Source: Acidimicrobiia bacterium (GTDB taxonomy: Bacteria > Actinomycetota > Acidimicrobiia > Spongiisociales > ZC4RG35). From it: 64,000 nucleotides of DNA. Location of the stretch: the NCBI GenBank assembly GCA_028285585.1, contig JANQOU010000010.1, forward strand, positions 62,001-126,000. The letters run 5' to 3'. A program made the position numbers and the translations under genes. Every line of letters starts with the position of its first letter. Positions within the stretch are counted from its first letter, which is position 1. The notes beneath the pieces were generated by a model. That model searched no databases. It worked only from the letters and a program-made list of their open reading frames with translations, and was not told the origin of the DNA. Shown here piece by piece: positions 1,855 to 28,934 of this stretch.

Positions 1855-3500
1855 GCAAGAGACTGCTGTTCTTCGCCGCCGGAGCCATGCTGGCCCTCAG
1901 TGCCTGTGCTCCGGCACCTGGCGTTGATGCATCACCGGCGGCGACCGGAGACCCGACCAACCGGGCACCGGCCCAGTGGTCCGGAGTCACACGCAACGTC
2001 CCGGCCGAGTTTCCCACCATCCAATCGGCCGTCGATGCAGCCGACCCCGGCGACCTGATCCTGGTCGACCGCGGTGTCTACAAGGAGACGGTCACCGTGA
2101 CCACCCACGGCTTGACCATCCGCGGCGTCGATCGCAACGACGTGATCATCGACGGTGAGCTGGAGCGGTTCAACGGCGTCGAGGTGCTGTTCGCCGACGG
2201 TGTCGTCGTCGAGAACATGACGTCGATGAACAACAGGATCAACGGGTTCTTCTGGAACGGCTCGCGCGGCTTCCGAGGCTCCTATCTGACCGCAGTCAAC
2301 AACGGTGACTACGGGATCTACGCCTTCGACTCGGGCGATGGGGTCTTTGAGCACTCGTACGCGTCTGGATCACCCGATGCCTCCTATTACATCGGGCAGT
2401 GCGATCCCTGTGATGCGGTTCTCAGAGACTCGATCGGTGAGTTCAGCGGTCTCGGCTACTCGGGGTCCAACGCTTCGGGCCCGCTCTATCTCATCAACAA
2501 CGTCTTCCGGCACAACGGGACCGGGGCAGCACCCAACTCGCTCGACGGTGAGCTTCTTCCGCCGACGGTTGACATGGTGGTGGCGGGCAACCTCATCCAC
2601 GACAACGGATACGGCGTCTTCCCCCACAAGTCGGCTCAGTGGGCGATCCAGGGGAACGGCGTTGCCATCGCTGGCACCCAGGGCACGCTGGTGACCAAGA
2701 ACCGCATCTTCAATCACCCCAACGCCGGGATCTGGGTCGGAACCAACATCGACGCCAATGTGTACATGCCGATAGAGAACGTGATCGAAGGCAACATTGT
2801 CGAGGGCTCCGGTCTCGCCGATCTCAACCTCTCCGGGCCCGGCGGCTACGGGAACTGCTTCGTCGACAACGAGCACAGCCACACCATGCCGGCTCTCCTG
2901 GAGCAAAAGAGCCCCTGTGAGGGGCTTCGCCTCCAAGCAAACTGGGAGATCGGGTCTTTCGCCACTCTGTTCGGCCGCGTGGTCGAGCGGGGCCTTGGCC
3001 TCAACCCCGACATCTTCTATTGGGACATGCCGCATCCGTCCCCCCAGCCGCAGATGCCGGGAGGCGCAGATGCCCCCGTCGTCCCAGCAGTCAACGTTTT
3101 CGCATCGGTGGAGCCCGATCTCGACACCGTCGAGATCCCACCGATGCCCGCAGGCCTAGAAGTAACACAAGGGAAAGGGTTCAACCTCATGGGCATTACC
3201 TTCGCCTCAACGATCGGAGGCATCCTCGGCCTCTACGGATACCTGCTGCCGCTGGTCCTCTATGCGGCATGGGTCGCCATTGCCGTCTGGGAGATCGTCA
3301 AGCGGGACGACATGGCTAAAGGCGCCGGCATCGTCTGGATCCTCGCGATCCTGGTGATCCCCTTCCTCGGTGTGATCGCCTACTACATCTTCGGGAAGAG
3401 CCACATAGCCGCCGCTTATCGATGGGCTCTTTTGGCGGGCGGGCTTGGCGCCTATCTGCTGTTCCTCGCCGCCGGGCTGGTCGTCGGAGGGGTCATCTGA
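1851..3500 (+). CDS. Right-handed beta-helix lipoprotein with C-terminal PLDc_N-like membrane domain
   Basis: 549 residues from GTG 1851. A lipobox ending at Cys19 (L-S-A-C) gives a lipid anchor. Residues about 45-330 form parallel beta-helix repeats like those of NosD and pectate-lyase folds, with many N-G, G-V and N-N turns and the opening motif F-P-T-I-Q-S-A-V-D-A-A-D-P-G-D. The last ~110 residues hold three transmembrane helices (about 442-478, 487-510 and 523-549); the middle one with its W-I-L-A-I-L-V-I-P-F-L-G-V-I-A-Y-Y and G-K-S-H resembles the phospholipase D-nuclease N-terminal membrane domain. NosD-type proteins help copper-centre maturation, which suits the cupredoxin and multicopper oxidase on either side. 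Substrate unknown. Confidence 0.8.
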   Translation: MSKRLLFFAAGAMLALSACAPAPGVDASPAATGDPTNRAPAQWSGVTRNVPAEFPTIQSAVDAADPGDLILVDRGVYKETVTVTTHGLTIRGVDRNDVIIDGELERFNGVEVLFADGVVVENMTSMNNRINGFFWNGSRGFRGSYLTAVNNGDYGIYAFDSGDGVFEHSYASGSPDASYYIGQCDPCDAVLRDSIGEFSGLGYSGSNASGPLYLINNVFRHNGTGAAPNSLDGELLPPTVDMVVAGNLIHDNGYGVFPHKSAQWAIQGNGVAIAGTQGTLVTKNRIFNHPNAGIWVGTNIDANVYMPIENVIEGNIVEGSGLADLNLSGPGGYGNCFVDNEHSHTMPALLEQKSPCEGLRLQANWEIGSFATLFGRVVERGLGLNPDIFYWDMPHPSPQPQMPGGADAPVVPAVNVFASVEPDLDTVEIPPMPAGLEVTQGKGFNLMGITFASTIGGILGLYGYLLPLVLYAAWVAIAVWEIVKRDDMAKGAGIVWILAILVIPFLGVIAYYIFGKSHIAAAYRWALLAGGLGAYLLFLAAGLVVGGVI

Positions 3501-23228: not shown

Positions 23229-24506
23229 ATGGAGGAGATGTTGCACGGCGGAAACGAATACGACTCACCGATGTATCACGAGGCGGTTGGTCAATTCAAC
23301 CGTGTCGCCAAGCTGATGGGTCTCGACGAGAACGTCTCGGATCGCCTGAGAAGCCCGCAGAAGTCGACTGTTGTCTCCTTCCCATTTCGACACGACAACT
23401 ACACGCAGGTGGACACCATCTTCGGGTATCGGGTGCAGCACCTGACCACGATGGGCCCCACCAAGGGCGGCATCCGCTTCGCACCCGATGTCGACCTCGG
23501 CGAGGTGTCGGCACTGGCGATGTGGATGACCTGGAAATGCGCCATCGTCGGTGTGCCATTCGGCGGCGCCAAAGGGGGAGTGCGCATCAACCCGATGGAG
23601 CTGTCCCGGGCCGAGCTGCAGAGGGTGACTCGTCGCTTCACGATGGAGATCATCAACGTCATAGGCCCCGACACCGACATCCCGGCACCCGACCTCGGGA
23701 CCAACGAGCAAGTCATGGCCTGGTTGATGGACACCTACTCCCAGCACGTCGGCCATGCAGTGCCCGCAGTGGTCACCGGAAAGCCTCCGGCCCTGGGTGG
23801 CAGCGTCGCCCGTCGGGAGGCGACAGGACGCGGCTTGATGTTCCTGGTGCCGCAAGCGGCGCGGGTGGTGGGCATCGACCCGGTCGGAGCCACGGTGGGG
23901 ATACACGGGTTCGGCAACGTTGGCCGGTATGCGGCGGTCGCCGGCCAGGAGATGAAGGCGAAGGTCGTTGCCGTCTCCGACATCTCAGGCGCCGTCTACA
24001 ACCCGGACGGTCTCGACATACCCGCTGTGGGCAAGTGGGTCGATGAGAACAGGTTCTTGGAGGGATATCCGGATGCTGACTTCATCGACGGCAATGCTCT
24101 CTTCGAGCTCGACGTCGACGTGCTTGTGCCGGCGGCGATCCAGGGCGTTCTTCACAAAGACAACGCGGCGAACGTGAAAGCCAAGTTGATCATCGAGGGA
24201 GCCAACAACCCGACAACTCTCGAGGCGGACGACATCCTTCGCGAGCAGGGGGTGTTCATCGTCCCCGACATCCTCGCCAACGCCGGGGGCGTGACTGTCT
24301 CGTACTTCGAGTGGGTGCAGGACGTGCAGAAGTACTTCTGGACCGAGAACGAGGTCGTGGCCCGGTTACGTGAGATCATGACCCGCGCCTTCGACGAAGT
24401 GCACGCAATAGCGATCGATGAAGGCATCGATATGCGCAACGCAGCCCTCATCAAGGGAATCAGGCGGGTCGCCGACGCCAAGCTGGTTCGAGGGATCTTC
24501 CCCTAG
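23229..24506 (+). CDS. gdhA: Glutamate dehydrogenase (Glu/Leu/Phe/Val family)
   Basis: 425 residues. The substrate pocket Lys residues are in P-T-K-G-G (Lys79), W-K-C (Lys103) and G-G-A-K-G-G-V (Lys115, the catalytic Lys), followed by the family's D-L-G-T-N-E-Q motif. The nucleotide-binding fold has G-F-G-N-V-G near residue 220. This enzyme interconverts glutamate and 2-oxoglutarate with NAD(P). The length and ending (K-G-I-R-R-V) fit the hexameric 420-residue class. The start at ATG 23229 has GGAG just inside; a promoter probably lies in 23139-23228. Its stop overlaps the converging nuclease gene by four bases. Confidence 0.93.
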   Translation: MEEMLHGGNEYDSPMYHEAVGQFNRVAKLMGLDENVSDRLRSPQKSTVVSFPFRHDNYTQVDTIFGYRVQHLTTMGPTKGGIRFAPDVDLGEVSALAMWMTWKCAIVGVPFGGAKGGVRINPMELSRAELQRVTRRFTMEIINVIGPDTDIPAPDLGTNEQVMAWLMDTYSQHVGHAVPAVVTGKPPALGGSVARREATGRGLMFLVPQAARVVGIDPVGATVGIHGFGNVGRYAAVAGQEMKAKVVAVSDISGAVYNPDGLDIPAVGKWVDENRFLEGYPDADFIDGNALFELDVDVLVPAAIQGVLHKDNAANVKAKLIIEGANNPTTLEADDILREQGVFIVPDILANAGGVTVSYFEWVQDVQKYFWTENEVVARLREIMTRAFDEVHAIAIDEGIDMRNAALIKGIRRVADAKLVRGIFP

Positions 24507-25300
24507 GAGGCTGGCTCCTCGGCATCGGCCCAGGCAGGGCAGATGTCCTGGAAGGAGCACCAGTTGCACAAACGTCCGGGGCGAGTCGGGAACCTGTCGG
24601 TCTCCAGTGCCCGGTCGATGGCGTTCCACAGTGCGCGCAGCTGGCCATCCATGGCATCCAGGTGATGGCTCTCGATCGGCAGGCGGTAAAGAGTGGGCCC
24701 GTTCAGGTAGAGCAGGCGAACCTCTTTGGGCGTTTCCCCGGTTCTCTGGCGGATCAGAAGCGCATAGATCTTCAGGGCGAAGAAGGCGGAAAGGGCGTAC
24801 CGCTCGGGTGGGGCTTTCCCCGTCTTGTAATCGGTGATGATGAGCCGGCCGTCATCGTCACGGTCGATGCGGTCGAGGATGCCGCGGATCGTGATGCCAT
24901 CGAGGTCTTCGAGCATGTCCAACTCGCGGTCCTCTGGGTCGAAAGTCGTTGGGTCTTCGATGGAGAAGTAGTTGGCGAGGAGCTTGAGCGACTCGACTCC
25001 CCAATCCCGCTCCTCTTCGGTGTCGGCGAACAGGCCCTCAAACTCGTCTTCACCCCTGATTTCGGTCCAGGCCTCCCGAAACAGGTCAAAAAGCCGTTCG
25101 GGGGTTCGCTCATCAGGCTGGTCATCGAAGAGGTTTTGCAGCGCGAGATGGGCAGTTGTGCCCCGCGCTTGGTAGATGGAGGTCGGCTCCGGGATCCGGT
25201 CTATGGCTCGGAACTTGAAGAGTTGGGGGCAGGTCTTGAAGTCTCCGGCGCGGCTCGGCGAGAGAGTCTCCAACTTCGGGTTCTGTAGCTCAACCGTCAC
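24503..25300 (-). CDS. Stand-alone RecB/Cas4-like iron-sulfur nuclease
   Basis: 265 residues. It begins with S-P-S-R-A-G-D-F-K-T-C-P-Q-L-F, the first cysteine of an iron-sulfur nuclease, then has G-I-L-D-R-I-D-R (Asp of the PD motif), I-I-T-D-Y-K-T-G-K (D-x-K catalytic strand) and ends with L-C-N-W-C-S-F-Q-D-I-C. This is the same fold and cofactor set as the nuclease domains of AdnA and AdnB, but without a motor. Such proteins (PF12705-like) degrade DNA ends or ssDNA. No cas genes are near, so a CRISPR role is unlikely; DNA repair is more probable. Confidence 0.85.
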   Translation of the reverse strand: MTVELQNPKLETLSPSRAGDFKTCPQLFKFRAIDRIPEPTSIYQARGTTAHLALQNLFDDQPDERTPERLFDLFREAWTEIRGEDEFEGLFADTEEERDWGVESLKLLANYFSIEDPTTFDPEDRELDMLEDLDGITIRGILDRIDRDDDGRLIITDYKTGKAPPERYALSAFFALKIYALLIRQRTGETPKEVRLLYLNGPTLYRLPIESHHLDAMDGQLRALWNAIDRALETDRFPTRPGRLCNWCSFQDICPAWADAEEPAS

Positions 25301-25365: not shown

Positions 25366-26616
25366 TCAGGTCGAGCCCATCGTCTTTGGCTCATCCGCCG
25401 GGTCGGGAAGCCCAGGTGGGGGCACCTCGGCCTGCCGGGTCCGGTCCAGCCTTCGTGCAGCGGGGAGGAATGCCAGCGCTCCTACGCCGACCAGCGTCCC
25501 AGAGATGATGAGTGACATCTGGACACCGAGGGCGGCAGCCAGCCAAGGAGCAAGAGTGAGCGGCAGGAGGTGCCCCACTTCGGAGTGGATGTGGTTGACG
25601 CCCATCACCCGACCCACCATCTTGGAAGGTGCGTTGATCTGGACCATCGTGCGATGCAAGGGGGCCATCATCCCGATGATGAGTCCCCAAACGACGCCTG
25701 CTGCGACTACCACCTGGAGCAGGTCGGTGCCTACGTAGAGCAGCACTCCGACGGCGTTCATCCCGACCAGAAAGGTGAGAAAAGTCGCGGTGCGCAGGCG
25801 CGCCGGGAAGCGTGCCGCGATCACTGTGCCGCTGACCAGCCCGATGCCGAAGATGGAGTTCACCCAGCCAAGCGTCTCGACTTCCACGCCCAGCACATCC
25901 CTGAAGAAAAGCGGCTCCAGTGCGCTGAAGGTGCCGAACAGCAGCCACACGGTTGACCCGAGGAAGATGTAGAAGCGGAGTCGCCGGTGGCCGTATGTGA
26001 AACGGAAGCCCTCCTTCAACTCATTCCAACCTGTGGATGTCTCGTCAATCGGAATCAGCTTCCTGACCTTCACAGGGATCAGAAGGGCAGCTGCGACCGC
26101 CGAGGTTGCCGCGTCGAACACGAAGATCGCATCAACGCCCACGGTGCCTGCGAGCAGTGCTCCGACCGCAGGCCCAACTACGAATGCCGTCCAAGAAGCA
26201 CCTTCGATCAGCCCGTTGATTCGCGACAGCTCGTCTTCTTCGTCGGTCAGGAAGGGGGCAAAGGAGGAGATGGCCGTGAACACCGGCGTGCCGACCAGGC
26301 CGAGCATGAACGTGGCAAGCACCAGCGAGGGGATGGTGTTTGCGAAGATGAGTGCCAGGGCGGCCGGCACGAACAGGATCTCGCCGACGAGGACCACTTT
26401 TCTCGGGTCGAAACGGTCGACGAGGACACCTGCGATTGACGCACCGATGAGAGATGCCACGCCGAGAGCTCCCATGACGAATGCAAGCTCGGTCGGGTTG
26501 GCGTCGAGAGTGAAGGCTGCCTTTCCCCAGATGCCCACGAAGAAGGCGGCCTCTCCTCCGGCCCGTGAGATGAAGCGGGCAAAGACGACGTTGCGAACGT
26601 TGGTGTTGGCCCACAT
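25366..26616 (-). CDS. MFS transporter, MefA/EntS-like efflux permease
   Basis: About 416 residues from ATG 26616 with 12 predicted helices. It begins N-V-R-N-V-V-F-A-R-F-I-S-R-A-G-G, the MFS_3 start, and has the loop motif D-R-F-D-P-R-K between helices 2 and 3, typical of antiporter-type MFS proteins. It most likely exports drugs, siderophores or other small molecules. An upstream ATG at 26649 would add 11 residues but would place the coding start over the first CGCGAAA box of the small-RNA promoter (26636-26646). The last 25 residues are a Pro-rich cytoplasmic tail. Confidence 0.87.
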   Translation of the reverse strand: MWANTNVRNVVFARFISRAGGEAAFFVGIWGKAAFTLDANPTELAFVMGALGVASLIGASIAGVLVDRFDPRKVVLVGEILFVPAALALIFANTIPSLVLATFMLGLVGTPVFTAISSFAPFLTDEEDELSRINGLIEGASWTAFVVGPAVGALLAGTVGVDAIFVFDAATSAVAAALLIPVKVRKLIPIDETSTGWNELKEGFRFTYGHRRLRFYIFLGSTVWLLFGTFSALEPLFFRDVLGVEVETLGWVNSIFGIGLVSGTVIAARFPARLRTATFLTFLVGMNAVGVLLYVGTDLLQVVVAAGVVWGLIIGMMAPLHRTMVQINAPSKMVGRVMGVNHIHSEVGHLLPLTLAPWLAAALGVQMSLIISGTLVGVGALAFLPAARRLDRTRQAEVPPPGLPDPADEPKTMGST

Positions 26617-26635
26617 CGGCGGCACGGTAGGCGCT

Positions 26636-26709
26636 CGCGAAAACAACATCTAGGCCGCGAAAACAATGGAGTTGGTTTGCTTGACGGCCTCATGAACCCT
26701 CCGTACTTT
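26636..26709 (+). promoter_or_regulatory. Promoter region of small RNA A with two direct CGCGAAAACAA boxes
   Basis: Two identical 11-mers CGCGAAAACAA lie at 26636-26646 and 26656-26666, exactly 20 bp apart (two helical turns). Twenty-five bases after the start of the second box comes TTGACG (26681-26686), a 17-bp spacer and TACTTT (26704-26709), a good housekeeping-type promoter. The same layout, with the same 25- and 17-bp spacings, recurs at 27744-27818. The boxes look like tandem sites for a regulator. Confidence 0.6.
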
Positions 26710-26715
26710 CGCCCT

Positions 26716-26862
26716 ACTGGTGAGAGGGAAACCTCTAACCGGCATCGGAGAAACCTCGGTTTCGACGATCCGCCACCTGTCCGGGGGCCCGCTTTCCCGG
26801 CGAGTGGCATGAGAAGCCCCGAGAGGGCTGAGGCTTCGGCCGAGGCTCCCTCGGGGTTTTCT
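26716..26862 (+). ncRNA. Putative structured small RNA A (about 145 nt)
   Basis: Bounded by the promoter above and a terminator with a T run at 26857-26860. The predicted RNA opens with an 11-bp hairpin, 26717-26727 paired with 26732-26742, capped by a GAAA tetraloop and interrupted by one G-A mismatch. A second domain pairs gccac (about 26772) with gtggc (about 26804) around an inner ccggg/cccgg stem. It ends in the UUCG-capped terminator. No credible reading frame fits. A longer relative with the same promoter, first hairpin and terminator lies at 27825-28260. I cannot match it to a known RNA family by eye; expression is not shown. Confidence 0.55.
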
Positions 26863-26867
26863 CGCGT
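26813..26867 (+). repeat. 55-bp direct repeat, copy A (other copy 28211-28265)
   Basis: This unit and 28211-28265 are about 51/55 identical and in the same orientation, 1.4 kb apart. Each contains a full terminator hairpin plus ctcgcgt downstream. Differences are concentrated at the 5' edge and at one stem base (c/t) where pairing is kept as G-U. Confidence 0.8.
26817..26860 (+). terminator. Rho-independent terminator of small RNA A
   Basis: The stem ccccgag/ctcgggg (26817-26823 with 26850-26856) continues past an A-C mismatch into gggct/ggctc, a tandem G-A pair, and ggc-UUCG-gcc at the tip. TTTT follows at 26857-26860. On the other strand no T run follows, so it is oriented for plus-strand transcripts, though its hairpin may also slow the NYN transcript that arrives from the right. 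Confidence 0.75.
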
Positions 26868-26934
26868 TTGTGCAGTTTGTCGAGTTGCGGTGGGGATTGG
26901 ATGAGCAGCGATCTTTGCCCATCAGGTTTCTCAG

Positions 26935-27606
26935 TTATGCCCACTCAGGTGGTCGGATCAGCTCCTTGCCTTCGAGGGACGTGAGTGTGTCCCGTAGCTG
27001 TGCCTGAGAGAGTCGCGACCGACTGATGTCTCGTTTGGCCGTCGCCGCAGCGATGAGGTCCAGGCTTCGGCGACCGCGAGGAGGGACGATGACAACCGTC
27101 TTCTGTGGGAAGCAGTTGCGGACGTATGCGACAGCGGGGATCAAGTCCTCATCTGCACACATGAGCCAGAAGGTGTCCGCGTTGTCGTGGTTGGCGTCGT
27201 GGACGATTTCAACGGCGATAGCGACGTCGGTTCGTTTCTCCTGAGATCGCTTGCCCCACTCATCACACGATGGGCACTTCCACTTACGACTTCGGAATCG
27301 CCCGTCGTTGTGGACATCAACTCCGGCGGATTCCAACGCTTCCAGATATGTCGCTTGCCGTTGTGAGGCGGTTTGTGACTGTTTTCGGCCTGTGGATGTG
27401 AAGTATTTGACTGCTACCAGCGTTTGGGCTTCATTCATCTCCCTGCTGAAGAGGGACCACAAATCGAGCCAAAGAAGCCTTCGCCATCCCTTCGCCTTTA
27501 GGCCGTAGTAGAGGTTGTAGCCGTCCACATAGGCGATGACACGCTCGGAATCGCTTGTAGCAATGACTTGCACTCGGTTAGCATCATGCCTATCTACGCC
27601 CCCCAT
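26935..27606 (-). CDS. NYN-domain (PIN-like) RNase with zinc-ribbon insert
   Basis: About 223 residues from ATG 27606; GTG 27573 is an alternative start. Residues about 22-185 form a NYN/LabA-type PIN-like nuclease: V-D-G-Y-N-L (Asp28), T-D-V-A-I-A (Asp127) and C-A-D-E-D-L-I (Asp152/Asp154) are the expected metal-binding acids, followed by V-I-V-P-P-R-G-R-R. A short insert has Cys111-x2-Cys114 within W-K-C-P-S-C-D-E-W, half of a possible zinc site. The C-terminal ~35 residues look like a small helical domain. NYN proteins cut RNA. The gene is flanked on both sides by related putative small RNAs on the opposite strand, which suggests, without proof, that they act together. Confidence 0.82.
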   Translation of the reverse strand: MGGVDRHDANRVQVIATSDSERVIAYVDGYNLYYGLKAKGWRRLLWLDLWSLFSREMNEAQTLVAVKYFTSTGRKQSQTASQRQATYLEALESAGVDVHNDGRFRSRKWKCPSCDEWGKRSQEKRTDVAIAVEIVHDANHDNADTFWLMCADEDLIPAVAYVRNCFPQKTVVIVPPRGRRSLDLIAAATAKRDISRSRLSQAQLRDTLTSLEGKELIRPPEWA

Positions 27607-27634
27607 TTGCAGACCTGCGTGGGATATAGGGTTA

Positions 27635-27669
27635 TTACAGGGACCTCGCTTTGGGCAAGGTCCCTGTAA
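27635..27669. promoter_or_regulatory. 12-bp perfect inverted repeat upstream of the NYN gene
   Basis: Arms ttacagggacct (27635-27646) and aggtccctgtaa (27658-27669) are separated by 11 nt. The repeat lies 29 bp before the NYN ATG on the minus strand, in the likely promoter or leader. It may be a protein-binding operator (arm centres 23 bp apart) or an mRNA hairpin; no T run follows on either strand, so a terminator is unlikely. Confidence 0.65.
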
Positions 27670-27743
27670 CGCGTCTGGGATGTCTCGTTCGATCGCACCG
27701 ATTCTCAATGTTCATGGGCCTCTCGAACAGCCCGTGAAGGGTT

Positions 27744-27818
27744 CGCGAAATCTCAACAACAGGTCGCGAAAAACAATGTGGCTTTCGGCTTGTGCAGGGT
27801 GTGCCGATGGTCTACTTT
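27744..27818 (+). promoter_or_regulatory. Promoter region of small RNA B with two CGCGAAA boxes
   Basis: Boxes at 27744-27750 (CGCGAAA, inside the palindrome ttcgcgaa) and 27765-27776 (CGCGAAAAACAA) are 21 bp apart. TTGTGC (27790-27795) begins 25 bp after the second box starts, and after 17 bp comes TACTTT (27813-27818). Spacing equals that of promoter A although the bases between differ, so the layout is under selection or recently duplicated and drifting. Confidence 0.58.
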
Positions 27819-27824
27819 TTCCGC

Positions 27825-28260
27825 CACGTCGACGGGGAAACCCGACGGCGGGCCGAATCAGCCGGAAACTGCTGAGGAGGCGATCCGAGGTCAGCCGGGA
27901 AACCGGAGGGCCCGAGGTCAAGCCGGAAGTCAGCCGGGAAACCGGACGGCGGAAGGTTCCGGGCGGAAAGCAAACGGGAAACCGGGAGTGGAACGTCCAG
28001 CCGGAGCCAGCGGGAAACTGGTGGCACCGGAGGTCGAGAGACCGGCGGGGATCCTTCGGGATCGTCGAAGGTAAACCGGCCCGCAGGCCGCAAGGCTTGC
28101 AATCGGCCCCGGAGACGGGGGCGAAGCGGTCCTCGGACCGCAGCCGGAGGCTTAGGCCGACGGCAACCTCCGAGCGGAGTTGGGTCCCCGGCCCGACGAC
28201 GCACGGAAGAGGAACCCCGAGAGGGTTGAGGCTTCGGCCGAGGCTCCCTCGGGGTTTTCT
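27825..28260 (+). ncRNA. Putative structured small RNA B (about 435 nt) with serial GAAA/UUCG hairpins
   Basis: The predicted RNA starts at the foot of a hairpin capped by GAAA (27824-27836 with 27841-27852, one A-A mismatch), the counterpart of the first hairpin of RNA A with different bases. Further hairpins follow: ccgg-GAAA-ccgg at 27895-27906 and again at 27934-27945, cgg-GAAA-ccg at 27975-27984, ccag/ctgg at 28007-28021, gatcc-UUCG-ggatc at 28050-28063, cccc/gggg at 28107-28120, gcggtc-ctcg-gaccgc at 28126-28141, and ggagg/cctcc at 28146-28171. It ends in a terminator almost identical to that of RNA A. Open frames cross it but give Arg/Gly-rich nonsense. Family unknown; expression is not shown. 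Confidence 0.55.
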
Positions 28261-28265
28261 CGCGT
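28211..28265 (+). repeat. 55-bp direct repeat, copy B
   Basis: Second copy of the unit at 26813-26867, same orientation. The two copies bracket the NYN gene and nearly all of RNA B. No transposase gene or short terminal inverted repeats accompany them, so they look like duplicated RNA-gene ends rather than insertion-sequence ends. Confidence 0.8.
28215..28258 (+). terminator. Rho-independent terminator of small RNA B
   Basis: Same fold as terminator A: ccccgag/ctcgggg base stem, a middle stem with G-U pairs, tandem G-A, and a ggc-UUCG-gcc tip, followed by TTTT at 28255-28258. It separates RNA B from the PH-domain gene that begins 80 bp downstream. Confidence 0.75.
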
Positions 28266-28337: not shown

Positions 28338-28933
28338 ATGGGCTACCCCGACCGACTGCTGAGTGACGACGAGACGATCGTCTCCGAGTTCCGACCCCAT
28401 TGGTCAGGGCTACTCCGCGAGATCCTCTTCGTTCTCGGTGCCTTCGCCATTGGCGTCATCCTGGTGATGATCGACGCACCGAGTTGGGCTTACGTGGCTT
28501 TGCTGATCTTGCTGTTCCTTTTCGTCATCGGTGGCGTCATCAAGTGGATCACGACACTCCACGTGATCACAACCGAGCGCGTGATTTACCGGGCCGGCTT
28601 CATCGCCAAGCGTGGCAAGGAGATCCCCCTCGAAGTGGTCAACGACATCGCCTTCAACCAGACCATCTTCGAGAAGCTGTTCGGCACCGGTGATCTCCTC
28701 ATCGAGTCGGCGGGAACCCACGGTCAGAGCCGTTATCGGGACATCCCGACACCAGAGGAGGTCCAGTCGCTCCTGTATCAGGTGAGAGAGGATCGCATAC
28801 GCGACATGAGGGCCGATGGTGTGACCGAATCGCGGGCTTCCCAGTTGGAGAAGCTCTCCAACCTCCACGACGAGGGCAAGCTCAGCGACGAAGAGTTCGA
28901 ACAAGAGAAGAACCGGCTATTGCGAGGTGACTG

Positions 28934-28934
<1 letters not shown>
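28338..28934 (+). CDS. Membrane PH-domain protein (bPH2/YdbS-like) with C-terminal SHOCT domain
   Basis: 198 residues. Two transmembrane helices (about residues 30-48 and 53-74) come first, then a bacterial PH-like domain with T-T-L-H-V-I-T-T-E-R-V-I-Y-R and the G-D-L-L-I-E-S-A-G pattern (about 80-150). The last 32 residues, with L-H-D-E-G-K-L-S-D-E-E-F-E-Q, are a SHOCT helix pair, often seen in membrane or stress proteins. Function unknown; bPH2 proteins may bind lipids or proteins at the membrane. The stop shares one base with the ATG of the acyl-CoA ligase, so they are co-transcribed. Confidence 0.82.

Follow-up and report, generated by a model that had tools for sequence, protein, structure and literature searches.

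Two similar loci, each with a promoter-like region followed by a string of hairpins, are located on the plus strand of a 64,000-nt stretch of DNA (hereafter referred to as the window; G000:C12:62001-126000) from a 2.6-Mb Acidimicrobiia genome. A gene for a putative RNase lies between them on the opposite strand. This arrangement raises the questions which RNAs are encoded here, whether they represent a family of their own and with which cellular process they are associated. The features of the region, with the two predicted transcripts denoted RNA-A and RNA-B, are as follows:

24503..25300, minus strand: PDDEXK (AddB-like) nuclease gene, left neighbour (Pfam PF12705; synteny)
25366..26649, minus strand: MFS transporter gene, an insertion that only some members of the family have and whose 5' end, as listed, overlaps RNA-A box 1
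26636..26662, plus strand: paired CGCGAAA boxes preceding RNA-A (26636 and 26656; spacing 20 bp)
26681..26709, plus strand: predicted sigma70-type promoter of RNA-A (TTGACG, 17 bp, TACTTT; spacing constant in relatives)
26716..26867, plus strand: RNA-A, about 150 nt, four hairpins (fold z -5.3; alignment A2)
26807..26867, plus strand: conserved 3' hairpin/terminator of RNA-A (covariance model CM R1, E 3.4e-16, G000:C12:88808-88868)
26935..27708, minus strand: NYN-domain gene (Pfam PF01936, E 2.6e-10), missing from the relatives' loci
27744..27771, plus strand: paired CGCGAAA boxes preceding RNA-B (27744 and 27765; spacing 21 bp)
27790..27818, plus strand: predicted sigma70-type promoter of RNA-B (TTGTGC, 17 bp, TACTTT)
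27825..28265, plus strand: RNA-B, approximately 440 nt long with some 14 hairpins (fold z -7.5; relatives by blastn; family statistics)
28205..28265, plus strand: conserved 3' hairpin/terminator of RNA-B (CM R1, E 3.3e-17, G000:C12:90206-90266)
28338..28934, plus strand: bPH-SHOCT gene, right neighbour (Pfam PF03703, PF09851; synteny)

Direct reading of the DNA confirmed the promoter layout that a preliminary description of the region had claimed for both loci, namely box, box, 25 bp, -35 element, 17-bp spacer and TACTTT. Upstream of RNA-A, box 2 starts 25 bp before the -35 element TTGACG at 26681, which is followed by TACTTT at 26704-26709; for RNA-B, the same 25-bp distance separates the beginning of box 2 from TTGTGC at 27790, with TACTTT at 27813-27818. 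The first hairpins were also found as described, i.e., capped by GAAA and carrying a purine mismatch at the same place (G.A in RNA-A, A.A in RNA-B). Near-identity of the two terminators held, with 95% identity over 57 nt, but the term 'terminator' had to be revised, since the element represents a covarying long stem that includes the U-tract. Because this tract falls within the outer stem, the 3' hairpin is not a textbook terminator.

Both RNAs fold better than dinucleotide shuffles of their sequences, with z-scores of -5.3 (RNA-A) and -7.5 (RNA-B) and no shuffle as good in either case. Among 60 3' hairpins collected across the order, the CCCGAG/CUCGGG core is invariant, and covariation is seen in both the outer and the inner stem: 84 cells carry two-sided changes that preserve pairing vs. 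33 in shuffles, none of which scored as high, and slid controls gave 3-28. Alignment A2, comprising RNA-A homologues of eight genomes, contains 15 pairs with changes on both sides. The earlier claim that the related RNAs are under selection for structure is thus supported by covariation. The third hairpin of RNA-A carries GGGGGCCCGCUUUCCCGG, which is invariant in the eight relatives and contains the loop CCCGCU, and this conserved C-rich loop is shared by several RNA-A forms.

Order-wide accessibility was judged from minimum free energy (MFE) statistics of 52 non-redundant RNAs. The MFE per nucleotide was below that of all 8 shuffles for 51 of the 52; tetraloops accounted for 83% in the RNAs vs. 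31% in shuffles, and unpaired runs of at least 6 nt amounted to 1.4 per RNA vs. 4.4. Loops within the family are mainly UUCG, GAAA, GCAA and GAGA, those of RNA-B being mostly of the GNRA/UNCG type; the internal loops, which are symmetric, are rich in purines (GA/GA, GAA/GGA, GGAA/GGAA; tandem G.A). Hairpin number and sequence vary freely within a length range of about 85-550 nt, whereas the caps and the 3' hairpin are constant. A repeated protein-binding motif was sought in the order-wide RNAs, and none was found beyond the tetraloop hairpins themselves. As a separate observation, CGCG is strongly depleted inside these RNAs (13 seen vs. 140 expected from shuffles); the depletion is milder in the DNA of the window (335 seen vs. 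400-634 expected).

Covariance model CM R1, built from the shared 3' hairpin and independent of promoter sequence, was used to determine the distribution of the RNAs. The scan, which the preliminary description had suggested, recovered homologues with covarying stems in 98 of the order's 110 genomes, mostly with one to three copies each; the E-values are rough, and 19 weaker matches outside the order need care, although the two of them that were examined resemble a related type of RNA. No match was obtained for the remaining 12 genomes, and as some lineages manage without one, the RNA is dispensable there. Genus g11, belonging to the same family, lacks the 3' hairpin, yet possesses many boxes of a different layout. 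When 85,000 genomes were searched with a 20-base promoter pattern, 72 stretches were obtained vs. approximately one calculated by chance, nearly all from Acidimicrobiia or mislabelled bins of this lineage. Chance is excluded as the origin of the promoter layout. The remaining matches, from Azospirillum, Bacteroidales and a few other groups, are not accompanied by such an RNA and appear to be chance occurrences. A slightly shorter form of the pattern was present in 85 of the 110 genomes of the order vs. 2 of 284 genomes of the class outside it, as tallied by hand, and a reversed-pattern control yielded almost no matches in the class. Viral contigs scanned with the promoter pattern gave no match, and a phage origin of the RNAs was rejected on these grounds.

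At the gathering cut-off of Rfam release 15, no family was matched by these RNAs, in keeping with the preliminary description, which knew of no system with this plan, and relaxed thresholds returned nothing credible; a literature search likewise found nothing on them. Judged by sequence and predicted fold, RNA-A and RNA-B are paralogues of an undescribed non-coding RNA family that is nearly order-wide in uncultured Acidimicrobiia. A similar 3' hairpin following GAAA/GCAA hairpins was noticed in genomes of f23, another family of the class (L266 near 2770-2831, minus strand; L267 near 2510-2830, plus strand). The f23 loci share the hairpin GUCCGACACGGG, located before the 3' hairpin, and have no CGCGAAA promoter; possibly, they encode an older, class-wide relative of the hairpin-string RNA.

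Of 93 genomes of the order, 89 contain the double CGCGAAA box, and its candidate target genes were sought by pattern searches and tests of upstream regions. Twenty unassigned double-box regions that were fetched blind contained further RNA loci and otherwise mainly dnaA, nrdJ and dnaB. With dnaA identified by TIGR00362 and nrdJ by Pfam, boxes were located upstream of dnaA at 28 of 30 loci (52 boxes in 18 kb, compared with a shuffle expectation of 2.1 and with 12 boxes in 106 kb elsewhere) and upstream of nrdJ, encoding the class II ribonucleotide reductase, at 26 of 30 loci (50 boxes vs. 7 in 95 kb). The association is weaker for dnaB, with boxes at 12 of 30 loci (18 vs. 10 in 106 kb). The window's own genome has a third double-box site between rplI and dnaB; at its dnaA, an exact box is separated by 20 bp from a degenerate one. 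Outside the order, the promoter-type pattern occurs in only two genomes, which are AT-rich, 1.0-1.1 Mb in size and probably affiliated with Actinomarinales, a sister order (PMC12008989); there it precedes dnaA. Retention of a GC-rich box before dnaA in AT-rich genomes is strong evidence that the box is a real site. Conserved paired boxes place the RNA loci in one group with dnaA, nrdJ and dnaB, and at the sequence level the RNAs have a cis-element in common with these replication genes. It is very likely that both the RNA family and this common element are real. Nothing was found in the literature on CGCGAAA in connection with dnaA, or on a common regulator of dnaA and nrdJ in Acidimicrobiia.

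Further box arrangements were observed. Inverted pairs (CGCGAAA-N18-TTTCGCG) are located upstream of nrdJ (L150, L151, L153, L166, L169) and dnaB (L247, L251), and since such pairs occur too, a dimer may bind the putative site in direct as well as inverted arrangement. Genomes of genus g11 (L117-L124) contain 5-10 dispersed double CGCGAAA sites each; the sites examined are followed by a GTTGGGCCCTCCCCCGCCACC-like sequence, and this element is distinct from the small-RNA promoters. Three tandem boxes with 20-bp spacing (L131, about 2920-2966, minus strand) precede a small gene, after which come SAF/CpaB-like and CpaE-like genes. Regarding dnaB itself, the homology in the window's genome (G000:C4:583567-587394) is divided into three pieces within one 1290-aa frame, as would be expected of inteins. 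The CGCGAAA box resembles yeast SCB-type and E2F-type cell-cycle sites, through which ribonucleotide reductase and further S-phase genes are likewise controlled; this likeness almost surely represents convergence.

For the function of the family, the following model is proposed. Each RNA would be transcribed from its own sigma70-type promoter with paired CGCGAAA boxes, and the boxes would serve as sites of one putative DNA-binding regulator. Most likely, this putative common regulator would time the RNAs with replication, alongside dnaA, nrdJ and often dnaB. The RNA would act through its structure, i.e., as a string of very stable tetraloop hairpins with tandem G.A internal loops, and may titrate or scaffold an RNA-binding protein during the replication phase. 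A decoy or scaffold role is suggested because open stretches are few and hairpins vary freely, with constant caps and an invariant 3' hairpin. Points that count against the model are the missing 3' hairpin of genus g11, the 12 genomes of the order with no match, the C-rich loop of several RNA-A forms as a potential pairing seed, the lack of a repeated protein-binding motif other than the tetraloop hairpins, and the weaker association with dnaB. As a whole, the reading as box-regulated, paralogous and replication-timed RNAs of the decoy or scaffold type is the best explanation and probably correct. Taken separately, the decoy or scaffold mechanism is the preferred function, but is put forward with less than even confidence.

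The main rival is a trans-acting antisense small RNA whose C-rich loop would pair with mRNAs, perhaps those of replication genes. The CCCGCU loop inside GGGGGCCCGCUUUCCCGG, invariant in the eight RNA-A homologues, argues for such pairing, and precedents exist in two known RNAs. EcpR1 of Rhizobiales is a stringent-response RNA whose conserved GC-rich loop pairs with dnaA and gcrA mRNA (PMC4414408), and 6C of mycobacteria, 93 nt in length with two C-rich loops, interacts with dnaB mRNA as a target (PMC8628891). EcpR1, a trans-acting small RNA, resembles the present family in being a conserved structured RNA tied to replication and cell-cycle genes, dnaA included. However, the tie observed here is a promoter element common with dnaA and nrdJ, known from sequence, and the RNAs are multi-copy hairpin strings of an unrelated phylum. 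Similarly, 6C/B11 is an actinobacterial structured RNA with C-rich loops, and one RNA-A loop is C-rich as well, but the present family spans about 85-550 nt and has mostly GNRA/UNCG loops; neither a match to the Rfam covariance model of 6C nor two C-rich stem-loops were found in these RNAs. Furthermore, most members display only tetraloops and have fewer open runs of at least 6 nt than shuffles, and the C-rich loop is not retained across the order, CCCGCU being invariant in the eight RNA-A homologues. Antisense pairing, conceivable chiefly for RNA-A-type members that carry the CCCGCU loop, is rather unlikely as an account of the RNAs at large.

An RNA-polymerase-binding function analogous to that of 6S or Ms1 was also considered. 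Both are abundant-type structured RNAs with their own promoters, and Ms1 occurs in Actinobacteria. The stable, multi-hairpin nature of the RNAs and the apparent strength of their own promoters would suit this function, as would the lack of an Rfam match to known RNAs of the 6S/Ms1 type at the loci searched. On the other hand, the RNAs have no sequence similarity to 6S or Ms1 and no large central bulge; they form local hairpins with short pair spans and no long open-promoter-like bubble, and both copy and hairpin number vary. An analogue of 6S or Ms1 is thus regarded as improbable.

The genomic neighbourhood bears on the next explanation. A conserved slot was recognized in which PDDEXK is transcribed away from the RNAs and bPH-SHOCT in RNA direction, with RNA-A adjoining the former and RNA-B the latter. 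Most of 104 RNAs possessing box and terminator adjoin PDDEXK or end 25-150 bp before bPH; many genomes have two RNA copies and some three (L036, L040). The same RNAs and neighbours are present on a contig of isolate UBA5794 (L065). As bPH begins about 25-150 bp past the end of RNA-B in many genomes, a leader or attenuator acting in cis on the bPH-SHOCT gene might be envisaged. Placement immediately before bPH and in its orientation was not a constant feature, however: RNA-A is positioned elsewhere, beside PDDEXK, the single RNA of family f6 has no bPH after it, and the L234 RNAs point away from bPH. Moreover, every RNA has its own conserved end hairpin. A leader function has little probability.

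The preliminary description had correctly recognized the opposite-strand gene between the loci as encoding a NYN-domain protein (Pfam PF01936) and had proposed that the RNAs may be substrates, guides or antidotes of this RNase. Adjacency, which applies to the window only, speaks for such a partnership. It was contradicted by the comparison of genomes, as none of the 20 syntenic RNA loci of relatives contains the NYN gene and homologous RNAs regularly occur without it, an outcome that the preliminary description itself had named as refuting. NYN homologues were detected in 8 of 60 genomes, namely the window's own and seven others with 30-40% identity that encode them elsewhere, unlinked to the RNAs, compared with the RNA in 98 of 110. 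Linkage between RNA and nuclease gene across genomes, as for a toxin-antitoxin system of the RNA-antidote type, was not found, and a NYN-associated RNA was rejected as highly improbable. According to synteny, the NYN and MFS genes are lineage-specific insertions into the PDDEXK-RNA-RNA-bPH slot, and the NYN gene is a chance neighbour outside the system. Just upstream of the NYN gene, a perfect 12-bp inverted repeat (TTACAGGGACCT...AGGTCCCTGTAA) was noticed at window positions 27635-27672, a candidate terminator or operator.

GacA-controlled rsmX/Y/Z and CsrB are multi-copy, multi-hairpin RNAs with an upstream activator box that titrate a protein, and the present family resembles them in its several multi-hairpin copies driven by box-containing promoters. 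Nevertheless, a CsrA/RsmA sponge of the CsrB/RsmZ type was rejected with next to no probability left, since the box is different, GGA is not displayed in hexaloops, and CsrA was found in just 10 of 41 genomes from the order, the window's genome not among them, so that the RNA occurs in genomes without CsrA.

Returning to the replication-timed decoy or scaffold RNAs proposed above, the family would add a structured RNA new to libraries from an uncultured order, with an unusual design of tetraloop hairpin strings and G.A internal loops. A short box conserved in two orders marks dnaA, nrdJ and dnaB together, and this gene set points to an undescribed putative replication-wide transcription regulator in Acidimicrobiia whose reach would include the hairpin-string RNAs. 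Tentatively, the RNAs may represent an RNA arm of replication control, i.e., a multi-copy RNA co-activated with dnaA, dnaB and ribonucleotide reductase by this regulator, whose hairpins would act on a replication or RNA-binding protein. By means of the CGCGAAA box, the timing of dnaA and of dNTP supply outside well-studied models becomes a testable question.
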